Assembly: GCF_010685995.1 (NCBI RefSeq)
Contig: NZ_JAAGWK010000018.1
Span: forward strand, 1-64,000
Length of the DNA: 64,000 nt
Source of the DNA: Goekera deserti
Lineage (GTDB): Bacteria; Actinomycetota; Actinomycetes; Mycobacteriales; Geodermatophilaceae
Direction of reading: 5' to 3'
Below, one piece after another: positions 9,989 to 56,079 of this stretch. Every line of letters begins with the position of its first letter. The stretch's first letter is position 1. Below the pieces are notes generated by a model, which saw only the letters and a list, made by a program, of their open reading frames with translations, was not told the DNA's origin and ran no database searches. A program made the translations under genes and the position numbers.

Positions 9989-10543
9989 ATGGCCGCCCCG
10001 CTGACCCTGCTCGTCGTCCGGCACGGCCAGAGCGAGTGGAACGCCGCCGGGCTGATGCAGGGCCAGGTGGCGCACGTGCCGTTGACCGAGCTCGGGCACG
10101 CCCAGGCCCGTTCCGCGGCCGACGAGCTGGCGTCGCTCGCTCCCGGCGCGCTGCTGAGCAGCGACCTGCAGCGAGCCGTGCAGACCGCCGAGCACTGCGC
10201 CCGCACCACCGGGCTGCCGGTGACCACGACCCCGGCGCTGCGCGAGCAGGGCTACGGCGACTACGAGGGCCGGCCCAGCCGCGAGCTGTGGGACCTCGTC
10301 GACTGGACCGACGTGCACTGGGCGGCGCCCGGCGGCGGCGAGAGCCTGGCCCAGCTGCACGCCCGGGTGGCCGGCTTCCTGGAACTGCTGCGCGCCGACC
10401 CGCCCGCCGACGTCGTCGCGCTGGTGACCCACGGCGACACGATCCGCGCCCTGACCGCGGTGCTCGCCGGCGACGGACCCGAGGCGATGCCGGTGGTCAC
10501 CCCGCACAACGGCACGGTCACCCGCGTCGAGCTGCCGCGGTGA
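9989..10543 (+). CDS. Histidine phosphatase, probable alpha-ribazole-phosphate phosphatase
   Basis: 184-aa phosphoglycerate-mutase-like enzyme: LLVVRHGQSEWNAAG carries the phospho-His (RHG), LLSSDLQRAVQTAE the second Arg, LREQGYGDYEG the acid/base Glu, and ALVTHGDTIRAL the second catalytic His. It lies 19 bp ahead of cobU and cobS, which make and join the lower-ligand half, so removing phosphate from alpha-ribazole phosphate or adenosylcobalamin phosphate is the likely job (CobC of enteric bacteria). I avoid that symbol because cobC is used below for the decarboxylase. ATG start at 9989. Confidence 0.85.
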   Translation: MAAPLTLLVVRHGQSEWNAAGLMQGQVAHVPLTELGHAQARSAADELASLAPGALLSSDLQRAVQTAEHCARTTGLPVTTTPALREQGYGDYEGRPSRELWDLVDWTDVHWAAPGGGESLAQLHARVAGFLELLRADPPADVVALVTHGDTIRALTAVLAGDGPEAMPVVTPHNGTVTRVELPR

Positions 10544-10562
10544 GCGCGGGCGGTGTCGGGCC

Positions 10563-11084
10563 GTGAGCCGGGTGCTGGTGCTCGGCGGCTCACGGTCGGG
10601 CAAGTCCGCGCACGCCGAGTCGCTGCTGGCAGGCCGGGACGACGTCCTGTACCTGGCGACCTCGCGGGTCGAGGACACCGACGCCGACTGGGCCGAGCGG
10701 GTCCGGCTGCACCGCGACCGCCGCCCCGCGGGCTGGACGACGCTGGAGACCACCCTGCCCTCGGACCTGATCCGGCCCGGCGCGGTGCTGGTGGACAGCA
10801 TCACCACCTGGGTGGCGGCGCTGATGGACGAGACCGGTGTGTGGACCGACGACGAGGCAGCCCCGGCGCGGCTGGCCGGCCGCTGCGACGCCCTGGTCAA
10901 CGCCTGGGTGATGACGCCGGCGCACGTGGTGGCGGTCAGCGACGAGGTCGGGCTGGGCGTCGTGCCGGAGACCCGCTCGGGCCGGCTGTTCCGGGACACC
11001 CTGGGCACGGTCAACCAGCGGCTGGCCGCCACCGCCGACGAGGTGTGGTTCGTGGTCGCCGGGCTGCCCCAGCGCCTGCGGTGA
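10563..11084 (+). CDS. cobU: Adenosylcobinamide kinase / adenosylcobinamide-phosphate guanylyltransferase
   Basis: 173 aa, the usual CobU length. P-loop LVLGGSRSGKSAHAE (residues 4-18), LATSRVEDTD, the HRDRRPAGWTTLE segment containing the His that is guanylylated in the family, VLVDSITTWVAAL, and VAVSDEVGLGVVPETRSGRLFRDTLGTVNQRLA are all diagnostic. It activates (adenosyl)cobinamide with ATP and GTP to AdoCbi-GDP in the cytosol. GTG start 19 bp after the phosphatase stop; the stop overlaps the cobS GTG, so the three genes form one coupled operon. Confidence 0.95.
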   Translation: MSRVLVLGGSRSGKSAHAESLLAGRDDVLYLATSRVEDTDADWAERVRLHRDRRPAGWTTLETTLPSDLIRPGAVLVDSITTWVAALMDETGVWTDDEAAPARLAGRCDALVNAWVMTPAHVVAVSDEVGLGVVPETRSGRLFRDTLGTVNQRLAATADEVWFVVAGLPQRLR

Positions 11085-36195: not shown

Positions 36196-36250
36196 GATCT
36201 GATTGAAAGGTCCACCAGGGCGTGCTGTCAAGACCGCACGCCCCGCGCCG

Positions 36251-36353
36251 TGTCGACAGGCCGCCATGTCGACCTCCCGCCGTGTCGACACCCCGCCCTG
36301 TCGACACCCCGCCCTGTCGACACCCCGCCCTGTCGACTCTGCGCCGTGTCGAC
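36251..36353. repeat. Seven-copy 16-bp tandem repeat with TGTCGAC core
   Basis: TGTCGAC recurs at 36251, 36267, 36283, 36299, 36315, 36331 and 36347, exactly 16 bp apart. The three central units share CACCCCGCCC as spacer; outer units are degenerate. The core GTCGAC is palindromic, so each unit is a potential protein site on both strands. It fills the gap between the terC leader and the end of the HAD gene. Confidence 0.9.
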
Positions 36354-36377
36354 ATGGCGACATCGGCGACCGACCGG

Positions 36378-39080: not shown

Positions 39081-39821
39081 TCAGCGGCAGCGGGCGGACG
39101 AGTACAGGTGGCTGTCCGGGAACTGCCCGGCGGTCAGCACCTCGCCGACCACCACGATCGCGGTGCGCCGGACGCCGGCCGCCGTCACCTGGCCGGCGAT
39201 GTCGGCCAGCGTGCCGCGGATCACCAGCTCGTCGTCCCGGCTGGCCCGGGCGACCACCGCGACCGGGCAGTCCAGCCCGTAGTGCGGCAGCAACTCGGGC
39301 ACCAGCTCGTCGAGCCGCTGCACGGCCAGGTGCAGCACCAGCGTGGCCCCGGTGGCGGCGTAGGCGGCCAGCTGCTCCCCCGGCGGCATCGCCGAGGAGC
39401 GCGCCTGCGTCCGGGTCAGCACGACGGTCTGGCCCACGCCGGGAACGGTCAGCTCCCGCTTCAGCGACGCGGCCGCCGCGGCGAACGCCGGCACCCCCGG
39501 GACGACGTCGTAGGGCACGCCGGCCGCGTCCAGCCGGCGCATCTGCTCGGCCATCGCGCTGTAGATCGACGGGTCGCCGGAGTGCAGCCGGGCGACGTCC
39601 AGGCCGGCGGCGTGCGCCGCGACCAGCTCGTCGGTGATCTGGTCGAGGGTGAGGTCGGCGGTGTCGACCAGCCGGGCACCGGCGGGGGCGGTGTCCAGCA
39701 GCTCGCGCGGCACCAGCGCGCCCGCGTAGAGGCACACCGGCGCCGAGGCGATCAGCCGCGCCGCCCGCACGGTGACCAGGTCGGCCGCCCCCGGCCCCGC
39801 CCCGATGAAGTGCACCGTCAT
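39081..39821 (-). CDS. cobM: Precorrin-4 C11-methyltransferase (CobM)
   Basis: 246 aa SAM-dependent methylase: [46 protein letters not shown] (GDPxxY motif), [34 protein letters not shown] and [15 protein letters not shown]. The ATG at 39821 overlaps the stop of the 48-codon ORF upstream (ATGA), so its translation is coupled to cobL through that ORF. Confidence 0.96.
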
Positions 39822-39964
39822 GCGAGGCCCCGGCACTTGAGCCCGAAAAAGTCAGGATCGCCGGCGGGCTCGAGCCCGAAGATGTCGGGATCAGCGGCGG
39901 ACTCGAGCCCGGAGACGTCAGGATCGGCGGCGGACGCCGGCTCGAGGAGGAGGGACGCGGTCAT
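39818..39964 (-). CDS. 48-codon repeat ORF coupled to cobL and cobM
   Basis: ATG at 39962-39964 overlaps the cobL stop (ATGA) and its TGA at 39818-39820 overlaps the cobM ATG (ATGA), leaving no untranslated gap. The peptide is MTASLLL, then three repeats with pattern E-[PS]-A-x-(x-x)-ADPD/GDPD-[VIF]-[SF]-GL, then KCRGLA. Repeats 2 and 3 are exactly 33 bp at DNA level; the first is 39 bp. Many codons end in T or A (GAT, CCT, GCT, TTT, GCA), unlike neighbours, so a repeat element that happens to keep frame is as possible as a selected peptide. No family recognised. Confidence 0.5.
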
Positions 39965-41175
39965 CGGGTCACGCTCCAGATCGTCACGGGCATCGCCGGC
40001 TTCCAACCGCTGAACCGGCCGACCGGCTCGGCCTGCGCCACCGACAGCCGGGTCAGCGACCCGCCCACCCGGCCGTGCCACTCGGCCAGCACGGCCTCGC
40101 TCTGCACCGTCACCGCGCTGACCACCAGCCGCCCACCGGGGGCCAGCGCCTCCCAGCAGAGGTCGAGCAGCAGCGGCGTGGTGGCCCCGCCGCCGACGAA
40201 GACCGCGTCCGGCCGGGGCAGCCCGGCCAGCGCCTCGGGCGCCCGGCCGAGCACGACCCGCAGCCCGGGGACGCCGAGCCGCAGCGCGTTCCCGGTGACC
40301 CGGTCGGCCCGCTCCGGCACCGGTTCCACCGCGACGGCGCGGCAGCTGGGGTGCACGCGCATCCACTCGATGCCGATCGAGCCGGCCCCGGCGCCGACGT
40401 CCCACAGCAGCTGGCCGGGCAGCGGGGCGAGCCGGGCCAGGGTCACCGCCCGCACGTCGCGCTTGGTGAGTTGGCCGTCGGAGTCGTAGGCGTCGTCGGG
40501 CAGGCCGGGCACGGTCGGCAGCGGCACCGTGCCGGGGTCGGCCCGCACCTCGACGGCGGTCACCACCAGGGGGTCGGTCGCGGCGTCGGACCAGCCGCGC
40601 GCGGTGCCGCTGGTGGCGTGCTCACCCGGACCGCCGAGCTGGGCGAGCGCGGTCACCCGGCTGTCGCCGTACCCGCGGGCGGTGAGCAGCGCGGCGACGG
40701 CGGCCGGGGTGCCGCCGTCCGAGCCGAGCACCAGCAGCCGGCGGCCCGGGGTGGCGTGCGGCAGCACCAGCTCCAGCGGGCGGCCTACCACGGTCACCAC
40801 CGTGGTGTCCTCCACCGCCCAGCCCAGCCGGGCGCAGGCCAGGGTGACCGAGGAGGGGTGCGGCAGCACGTGCACGGCGTCCCCGCCGAGCCGGCGCACC
40901 AGCGACGTGCCGATGCCGGAGAGCATCGGGTCGCCGCTGGCCAGCACCACGGTGTCCCGGTCGGGCACGGCGAAGCCGTCCAGCGCCGGGGCCATCGGCG
41001 AGGGCCACGGCAGCCGCTCGGCGCCCACCGACGCGGGCACCAGCCGCAGCTGCCGGTCGCTGCCCCGCAGCACGGCGGCCGCCTCGACCGCCCGGCGGGC
41101 CGCCGGGGACAGCCCGTCCCAGCCGTCGGCACCGATGCCGACGACCGTCACCCGCGCCCCCGGTGGCCTGCTCAC
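39961..41175 (-). CDS. cobL: Precorrin-6Y C5,15-methyltransferase (decarboxylating), CobL
   Basis: 404 aa bifunctional enzyme. N-terminal CbiE half (about 8-205): VTVVGIGADGWDGLSPAARRAV, VVLASGDPMLSGIGTSLVRRLG, VLPHPSSVTLACARLGW. C-terminal CbiT half (about 225-404): GLPDDAYDSDGQLTKRDVRAVTLARLAPLPGQLLWDVGAGAGSIGIEWMR (SAM-binding DVGAGAGSIGIE), AVAVEPVPERADR, AVFVGGGATTPLLLD. It methylates C-5 and C-15 and removes the C-12 acetate carboxyl. GTG overlaps the def stop; stop overlaps the small ORF. Confidence 0.96.
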   Translation of the reverse strand: MSRPPGARVTVVGIGADGWDGLSPAARRAVEAAAVLRGSDRQLRLVPASVGAERLPWPSPMAPALDGFAVPDRDTVVLASGDPMLSGIGTSLVRRLGGDAVHVLPHPSSVTLACARLGWAVEDTTVVTVVGRPLELVLPHATPGRRLLVLGSDGGTPAAVAALLTARGYGDSRVTALAQLGGPGEHATSGTARGWSDAATDPLVVTAVEVRADPGTVPLPTVPGLPDDAYDSDGQLTKRDVRAVTLARLAPLPGQLLWDVGAGAGSIGIEWMRVHPSCRAVAVEPVPERADRVTGNALRLGVPGLRVVLGRAPEALAGLPRPDAVFVGGGATTPLLLDLCWEALAPGGRLVVSAVTVQSEAVLAEWHGRVGGSLTRLSVAQAEPVGRFSGWKPAMPVTIWSVTR

Positions 41176-55583: not shown

Positions 55584-56079
55584 GGCGGTCGTCGGGGTCG
55601 GGGCGCGGCGCGGGGTGACGGCGGCCGAGGTGCTGGCCGCCGTCGACGCGGTGCTGCCCCCCGGCGTGCGGGTCGGCCACCTCGCCACCCTCGACGTCCG
55701 CGCCGCCGAGCCCGGGGTGCAGGCCGCCGCCGCCCAGCGCGGCTGGCGGCTCACCGGGCACCCCGCCGCGGCCCTGGCCGCCGTCGTGGTGCCGACGCCG
55801 TCCGCTCGGGCGGCGGCCGCCGTCGGCACGCCCTCGGTCGCCGAGGCCGCCGCCCTGCTCGGCGGTGGCGAGCTGCTGGTCCCGAAGACCGTCCTCGGCC
55901 GGGTCACCACCGCCGTCGCCCGCCCGATCCCCCGTCCCCCGGCCACGACGGCCACTTCCGCGGAAACGGCCGGTCCGACGACGGCCGTTTCCGCGGAGAG
56001 GGCCGGCGCGACGGCGGCCACTTCCGCGGAAAGGGCCGGTGTGGCGGTGGGGACGGCGACGGGCGGGGGTGCGGGGTGA
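55570..56079 (+). CDS. cobE: CobE/CbiG C-terminal-domain protein with a repeat-encoded tail
   Basis: 169 aa. Residues 1-120 form a CobE/CbiG_C domain: AVVGVGARRGVTAAEVLAAVDAVL, VGHLATLDVRAAEPGVQAAA, VPTPSARAAAAVGTPSVAEAAALLGGGELLVPKTVLGRVTTAVAR. Residues ~121-169 are a tail made of three REP-like palindromes read in frame (TSAETAG, VSAERAG, TSAERAG), absent from normal CobE. CobE assists late corrin modification; its exact chemistry is unclear. GTG at 55570 inside cobB; stop overlaps cobC. Confidence 0.85.
   Translation: MPRPEAVVGVGARRGVTAAEVLAAVDAVLPPGVRVGHLATLDVRAAEPGVQAAAAQRGWRLTGHPAAALAAVVVPTPSARAAAAVGTPSVAEAAALLGGGELLVPKTVLGRVTTAVARPIPRPPATTATSAETAGPTTAVSAERAGATAATSAERAGVAVGTATGGGAG
55949..56037. 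repeat. Three REP-like palindromes inside the 3' end of cobE
   Basis: Copies at 55949-55971, 55982-56004 and 56015-56037 of the TTCCGCGGAA family, spaced 33 bp apart. The same palindrome is intergenic at 6943-7029. Spacing is a multiple of three, so the repeats keep the cobE frame and encode similar heptapeptides. Confidence 0.88.

Follow-up and report, generated by a model that had tools for sequence, protein, structure and literature searches.

What is a short reading frame built from repeats doing between cobL and cobM, two genes of cobalamin synthesis to which it is tied by ATGA overlaps? It lies in the 64,000-nucleotide stretch of Goekera deserti DNA analysed here as a whole (the window), and a sequence-only reading had offered two answers: either cobalamin synthesis has a small protein not seen before, or a repeat has been domesticated to serve as a translational bridge. 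From the window, the same junction in relatives, other junctions and the copies of the repeats elsewhere, we assign a probability of roughly 0.84 to a form of the second answer, in which the ORF would be a filler reading frame by which the relay of ribosomes stays unbroken, its peptide itself being without function.

Table 1 Features of the cobL–cobM junction in the window
Feature	Positions	Strand	Basis
cobL, fused CbiE–CbiT, precorrin-6Y C5,15-methyltransferase, upstream coupled gene	39961..41151	-	NCBIfam TIGR02467 and TIGR02469 above cut-off; gene prediction
ATGA, bridge-ORF start overlapping cobL stop	39961..39964	-	sequence
Bridge (filler) ORF, 48 codons and TGA, 147 nt	39818..39964	-	sequence
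33-bp unit, 3.1 tandem copies; last copy (minus strand) contains the dispersed word CCTGACTTTTTCGGGCTCAAGT	39835..39935	-	TRF, repeat search
ATGA, bridge-ORF stop overlapping cobM start	39818..39821	-	sequence
cobM, precorrin-4 C11-methyltransferase, downstream coupled gene	39081..39821	-	NCBIfam TIGR01465, Pfam TP_methylase

The ORF and both of its overlaps are present as that reading had described them (Table 1). By NCBIfam, the gene that it called cobL is a fused CbiE–CbiT enzyme, and cobM scores 289.7 bits against a cut-off of 259.65 (the cobM_cbiF equivalog). There are 139 nt between the cobL stop and the cobM start, which is 1 mod 3, and the ORF overlaps the next gene, cobM, by 4 nt, as a MIRU-like ORF does. 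The three 33-bp copies claimed for its body form a real tandem array (82% matches and a TRF score of 139, ranking third among 129 rows in the window; spacings of 33 and 33 in a repeat search of the window), in which the first copy matches least well and is two residues longer. The claimed departure from GC3 bias holds as well: GC at codon positions 1/2/3 is 0.73/0.53/0.82 in the ORF versus 0.79/0.52/0.99 in cobM.

Elsewhere in the window, an eight-codon bridge ORF (VSAGGVGP, 10540–10566, plus strand) with GTGA at both ends links two same-strand predicted genes. Another 33-bp unit, in 2.9 copies (55945–56040, plus strand), occupies the 3′ end of the predicted gene at 55615–56079. The stop of that gene shares 4 nt with the predicted start that follows, and the repeat may have become part of a C-terminus where two genes are coupled. 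A 16-bp unit (CGCCCTGTCGACACCC) in 6.8 tandem copies (36246–36354) fills the gap between a HAD-type gene and a TerC/Alx family gene.

Among 112 genomes of the Geodermatophilaceae, the family that includes the genera Geodermatophilus, Modestobacter and Blastococcus, cobM was found in 97. Our sample of cobL–cobM junctions consists of 98 places in the family, two of them in a single genome, together with 5 in further families of the same order, 103 in all with none dropped. At 55 of these loci cobL passes directly into cobM through a 4-nt RTGA overlap without any ORF; at 11 the two genes are 4–5 nt apart, in 8 cases after a TAG stop; and the remaining 37 carry an insert of 16–370 nt. The length of 34 of the 37 inserts is 1 mod 3 (class 1; binomial against 1/3, P = 1.4 × 10−13), a pooled count that ignores kinship although the species are related and the loci are not independent. 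Every one of these 34 is a single uninterrupted ORF that opens on the RTGA ending cobL and reaches the cobM start, and every one (at least 16 nt long) has RTGA at the cobL stop. Both ends are 4-nt overlaps in 32 of the 34; the other two, L012 and L067, stop 3 nt beyond, the latter with a TAG lying 7 nt inside cobM. In L099, a class 0 insert of 153 nt, two ORFs make up the relay, and each of its three joints is a GTGA overlap. The rule is broken at L038 and L061, with inserts of 29 nt each, and even so L061 holds a five-codon ORF that terminates on the GTGA of cobM.

Because related species have inserts in common, we clustered the inserts by sequence, which gave 20 groups, 18 of them wholly class 1 (P = 2.3 × 10−7). 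The presence of a bridge changes at least 19 times on a quick cobL and cobM protein tree, or 7 times when only well-supported branches are counted. Bridge peptides vary widely among the relatives, with peptide stretches in common within some insert groups. The base before the upstream TGA is also the first base of the next start in 20 of the 34 bridges, and no clear target-site duplication of RTGA was found at these 34. With 34 inserts of class 1 against 2 of class 2, a longer N-terminus of CobM is, we infer, disfavoured.

The same preference for class 1 is found at two other junctions. At cobH(cbiC)–cobIJ, read at 90 of 96 places (6 were not included), 72 are direct and 18 have inserts of 25–140 nt, of which 12 are class 1 bridges (P = 0.004, ungrouped), 6 add in-frame codons to CobIJ, read from the −4 start, and none is class 0. 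The six extending inserts are L333, L340, L341, L354, L374 and L389; five are of one repeat kind, and L389 matches over 23 nt. A third junction, between genes that we take to be ‘FeS’ and ‘NrfD’, was chosen because the repeat of the window ORF sits there; it has a match in 97 of 112 genomes, from which 30 loci were taken. Gaps of at least 11 nt occur in 21 of them, comprising 12 bridges, 9 of class 2 and none of class 0. In eight of the nine class 2 cases the frame is open from the −4 start, and these may be no more than longer genes; some class 2 gaps may be mis-picked starts rather than inserts; at L538 the bridge terminates on an in-frame start upstream of the picked one. Pooled over the three junctions, gaps of at least 11 nt divide between classes 1, 2 and 0 as 58:17:1. 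The same repeats recur at different junctions; a 17-nt word, for example, is common to the cobL–cobM insert L021 and the NrfD insert L550.

In other actinobacterial families, where 4 of 80 loci lacked a cobL match, cobL overlaps cobM directly by 4 nt at 36 of 43 readable loci. Four gaps there are all 1 mod 3 (67 and 73 nt in Streptoalloteichus, 421 nt in Paractinoplanes and 139 nt in Amycolatopsis), and a bridge ORF was found in three of them. The fourth, the 421-nt gap of Paractinoplanes pyxinae (L405), is class 1 in length and no single bridge ORF was found in it; by eye, it is a tandem duplication, part of which resembles the N-terminus of cobM. None of the three short gaps outside the family (4, 10 and 13 nt, all after TAG stops) has a bridge.

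The CobK–HAD junction counts against over-generalising: its gaps are mixed (classes 1, 2 and 0 as 5:4:1), and 5 of 10 long gaps hold an RTGA-to-RTGA ORF of at least 391 nt, two of which resemble one real gene. A survey of 1.66 Mb of the Goekera deserti genome found bridges in 31 of 138 eligible gene pairs, compared with 19 and 14 in control frames. After RTGA stops, class 1 outnumbers class 0 by 54 to 28 (P = 0.005), and the contrast between RTGA and other stops has a Fisher P of 0.08; taken by itself, this genome gives a weak and no more than suggestive signal along its length. Two further junctions were uninformative: U43736–CobB, where 24 of 30 loci were readable, 18 were direct and three 47-nt gaps seem to come from mis-picked starts, and the gene preceding cbiC, whose overlaps vary and which aligns poorly.

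Where does the filler come from? A search of the window insert against its own genome, in which the window lies on contig 55, listed 45 matches at an E value of 10, the best non-self match having 1.4 × 10−5. The core of the repeat, allowing one mismatch at most, occurs at 22 places, 3 of which are the copies in the window, against 2 for a reversed control pattern; the dispersal of this core bears out the suggestion that the body of the ORF is an inserted repeat element. The common unit, CCTGACTTTTTCGGGCTCAAGTCAGG, is an imperfect palindrome of roughly 26 nt. We took 52 loci, namely the best 30 of the 45 matches and the 22 pattern places, of which 11 were weak and 15 duplicates. The copies fall between same-strand genes in 16 cases, between convergent genes in 3 and divergent genes in 2, and 5 loci (2 places) are inside predicted genes. 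An RTGA stop precedes 6 of the 16 same-strand copies, and 4 of these 6 are bridge ORFs; the other two (L128 and L145) have the repeat and no bridge. After non-RTGA stops, the control, gap classes 1, 2 and 0 at 10 places are 3:3:4. The four bridges read the repeat in two different frames: ...PDFFGLK... at cobL–cobM and at C19:303038–303256, and ...LTFSGSS/LTFPGSS... at C57:32077–32217 and C49:57053–57127.

Repeats of other families fill the junction in relatives. One element, represented by L054, gave 15–61 listed matches per genome at an E value of 10−6 in 9 of 9 genomes, which had been picked for having an insert, and another, represented by L063, gave 10–39 at 10−3 in 5 of 5; these counts are rough, as both strands are counted, palindromic copies may count twice and at most 40 candidates per genome were scored. 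The best-matching loci of the two families, 58 in number, reduce to 50 distinct places, of which 23 lie between same-strand genes, 22 between convergent and 1 between divergent genes, and 4 in predicted genes. RTGA precedes 11 of the 23 same-strand places. Eight of these are cobL–cobM junctions (seven bridges and L490, the L099 relay), and of the three elsewhere two are bridged (L504 and L527) and one is not (L473). The 12 same-strand places after non-RTGA stops, again a control, have classes 2, 1 and 0 in the proportion 5:4:3. A long tandem array in steps of about 90 bp (G014:C4:88634–89414) matches the L054 element family. In the cobL–cobM inserts themselves, the five tandem arrays with a TRF score above 100 have periods of 33, 15, 84, 24 and 24, all multiples of 3, and weaker rows include periods of 5, 7, 8, 16, 22 and 23 (L019, for example, has 3.5 copies of 16 bp, score 63).

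Such dispersal raises the possibility that the elements rather than the host junction set the frame, that is, that mobile elements of the MIRU kind bring a small ORF of their own and target RTGA. One group of 11 inserts, most of them 121–139 nt, recurs at cobL–cobM in several genera, its peptides ending alike (GRHLAAVSSGRTT and similar), and is dispersed, with the 15–61 listed matches per genome (rough counts) in the nine genomes searched; according to PMC12548453, start codons are where MIRUs insert. Against this, the frame rule extends over 18 of 20 sequence groups, the repeat of the window ORF is read in two frames, and the L069 insert is the L012/L024 element reversed (78–86% over about 100 nt, minus strand) and still bridged. 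Copies are also found between convergent genes (22 of the 50 places), and those after non-overlapping stops (12 of the 23 same-strand places) follow no frame rule. We regard an element that sets its own frame as rather unlikely.

The convergent placement would suit a different reading, an RNA element, such as a terminator, an attenuator or a processing hairpin, that controls cobM, the ORF arising incidentally or acting as a sensor of the leader type. Folding of the L063 insert is far stronger than that of its shuffles (z = −4.7), whereas the inserts of the window, L054 and L069 do not fold better than theirs (z = −0.6, −0.2 and 0.0), and Rfam at its gathering score gave no match in 8 loci. As the inserts vary between species and an RNA element would leave the frame rule unexplained, we consider this improbable.

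Less credible still is a functional small cobalamin protein, or a remnant of CobE/CbiG, which lies between cobL and cobM in alphaproteobacteria. Among the 22 most distant loci (L448–L469), 13 do have an ORF of about 105–135 amino acids in this position, joined to both neighbours by RTGA overlaps, and the one of the 13 examined, from L455, is CbiG_C. These loci are L448, L450, L452, L453, L455, L457–L459, L461, L463, L465, L466 and L468. The peptide of the window ORF, by contrast, has no Pfam or PHROGs match at an E value of 1, CbiG_C of Pfam included, and a search of the genome contigs found no relative of it. In its own genome it matches itself and, weakly, three other places (E values of 0.02–0.22), one of which (L004, on C57) is a repeat bridge recovered afterwards by DNA. 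Direct overlap without any gene is the arrangement at 55 of the 103 sampled loci and at 36 of the 43 readable loci of other actinobacterial families, the peptides of relatives differ, and the DNA is a dispersed repeat that elsewhere is mostly intergenic and in other frames. A check of constraint on the peptide gave the same answer: in five equal-length homologous insert pairs, differences at codon positions 1/2/3 are 29/35/26, with no purifying pattern by codon position and no amino-acid constraint. The idea of a new cobalamin protein is thus not supported, and both observations that the sequence-only reading had named as speaking against a selected peptide, a unit scattered over intergenic sites in different frames and junctions of relatives that lack any ORF, were made here. 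The bridge peptide is apparently not what selection acts on.

How much of the rule would chance produce? The rule concerns the length class; an open frame alone is cheap in GC-rich DNA. In a strict relay test that allows hops by −4 or −1 overlaps only, 34 of the 37 inserts pass (L067 fails because of its TAG stop and L099 passes), compared with 30.8 expected from same-length shuffles (P = 0.07) and 33 for reverse-complemented inserts. The weight of the evidence is therefore on the length class, because same-length shuffles mostly stay open. Shuffled inserts that have lost 0–2 random bases relay in 20.9 of 37 cases, those with one base deleted in 5.6, and those with two deleted in 30.0, mostly by in-frame extension. 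That the bridges are chance products, long open frames being common in GC-rich DNA and the RTGA ends belonging to the flanking genes, fits the same-length shuffles and is nevertheless very hard to believe, since it leaves the length class unexplained against these 20.9 or 5.6 expected, the 58:17:1 over three junctions and the 18 of 20 groups.

The filler reading frame remains our explanation, and its history can be sketched as follows. The ancestral junction was probably cobL–RTGA–cobM with a 4-nt overlap, at which a ribosome finishing cobL could restart on cobM. Dispersed intergenic repeats, here a palindrome of about 26 nt amplified as 33-bp units, would enter the junction repeatedly, and an insert would be retained mainly if its length and frame permit the relay: restart on the RTGA of the cobL stop, translation of the insert, termination on the RTGA of the cobM start and a further restart. 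The peptide would be whatever the repeat encodes in the fitting frame. Inserts that break the relay would be lost as CobM drops, through lost coupling or polarity. The sequences themselves show the anatomy of the junction, how common the direct overlap is, the origin of the filler in repeats, the frame rule and a peptide that is not conserved. We infer from them that ribosomes re-initiate at the junction and that the rule is caused by selection for coupling, perhaps also because the relay shields the transcript from polarity or from termination within the repeat. Shine–Dalgarno-like matches precede cobM both with and without inserts, and some independent initiation of cobM may therefore exist.

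A wider reading seems to us somewhat more probable than its opposite: in these actinobacteria, coupled operons would be selected for an unbroken relay and not for short spacing, so that DNA of any origin, orientation and frame, up to hundreds of bases, could be inserted if made into one or more carrier ORFs. If so, many annotated ‘small proteins’ of 20–120 codons in operons would be filler, and at the same time a source of new proteins. The junction is in effect an experiment that nature has run over and over at a single place; it indicates that the ATGA/GTGA hand-over of ribosomes is selected in nature, and it offers a simple frame rule for recognising filler ORFs and a warning against taking every overlapping small ORF as a functional protein.

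The proposal of a domesticated translational bridge is thus well supported, at the level of sequence, by the frame rule at three junctions; its supposed novelty needs qualifying. MIRUs (Supply et al. 1997, as cited in PMC12548453) are described in PMC12548453 as repeats, apparently mobile, that integrate at start codons and whose internal ORF is coupled at −4, likely limiting the impact on genes. The same paper has translational coupling as most efficient at small spacing. In the literature covered on MIRUs, coupling, palindromic elements, cobL/cobM overlaps and Geodermatophilaceae repeats, in part and with subscription papers mostly outside its scope, no report of this cobL–cobM junction was found. 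By that description the likeness to MIRUs is close: a short dispersed repeat with an internal ORF coupled at a 4-nt overlap. Because no single element is involved, we liken the cobL–cobM fillers to MIRUs by description and do not class them as such; here there are 20 insert groups at one junction from several repeat families, in both orientations and different frames, with one two-ORF relay, and the host is Geodermatophilaceae. Termination–reinitiation is similar in that both ends of the ORF are ATGA/GTGA-type overlaps, and differs in that it usually links two functional genes, whereas here the middle cistron would apparently be a mere carrier of ribosomes. Rickettsia palindromic elements and enterobacterial RU elements are, according to PMC10969869 and PMC2759123, likewise repeats kept open. 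They are fused into proteins, whereas the filler here is a separate cistron; the class 2 cobH–cobIJ inserts resemble that fusion type. Thus the kind of bridge has a precedent in the mycobacterial MIRU, and what is new is that a single site has received many fillers unrelated to one another, along with the frame rule and the internal controls.
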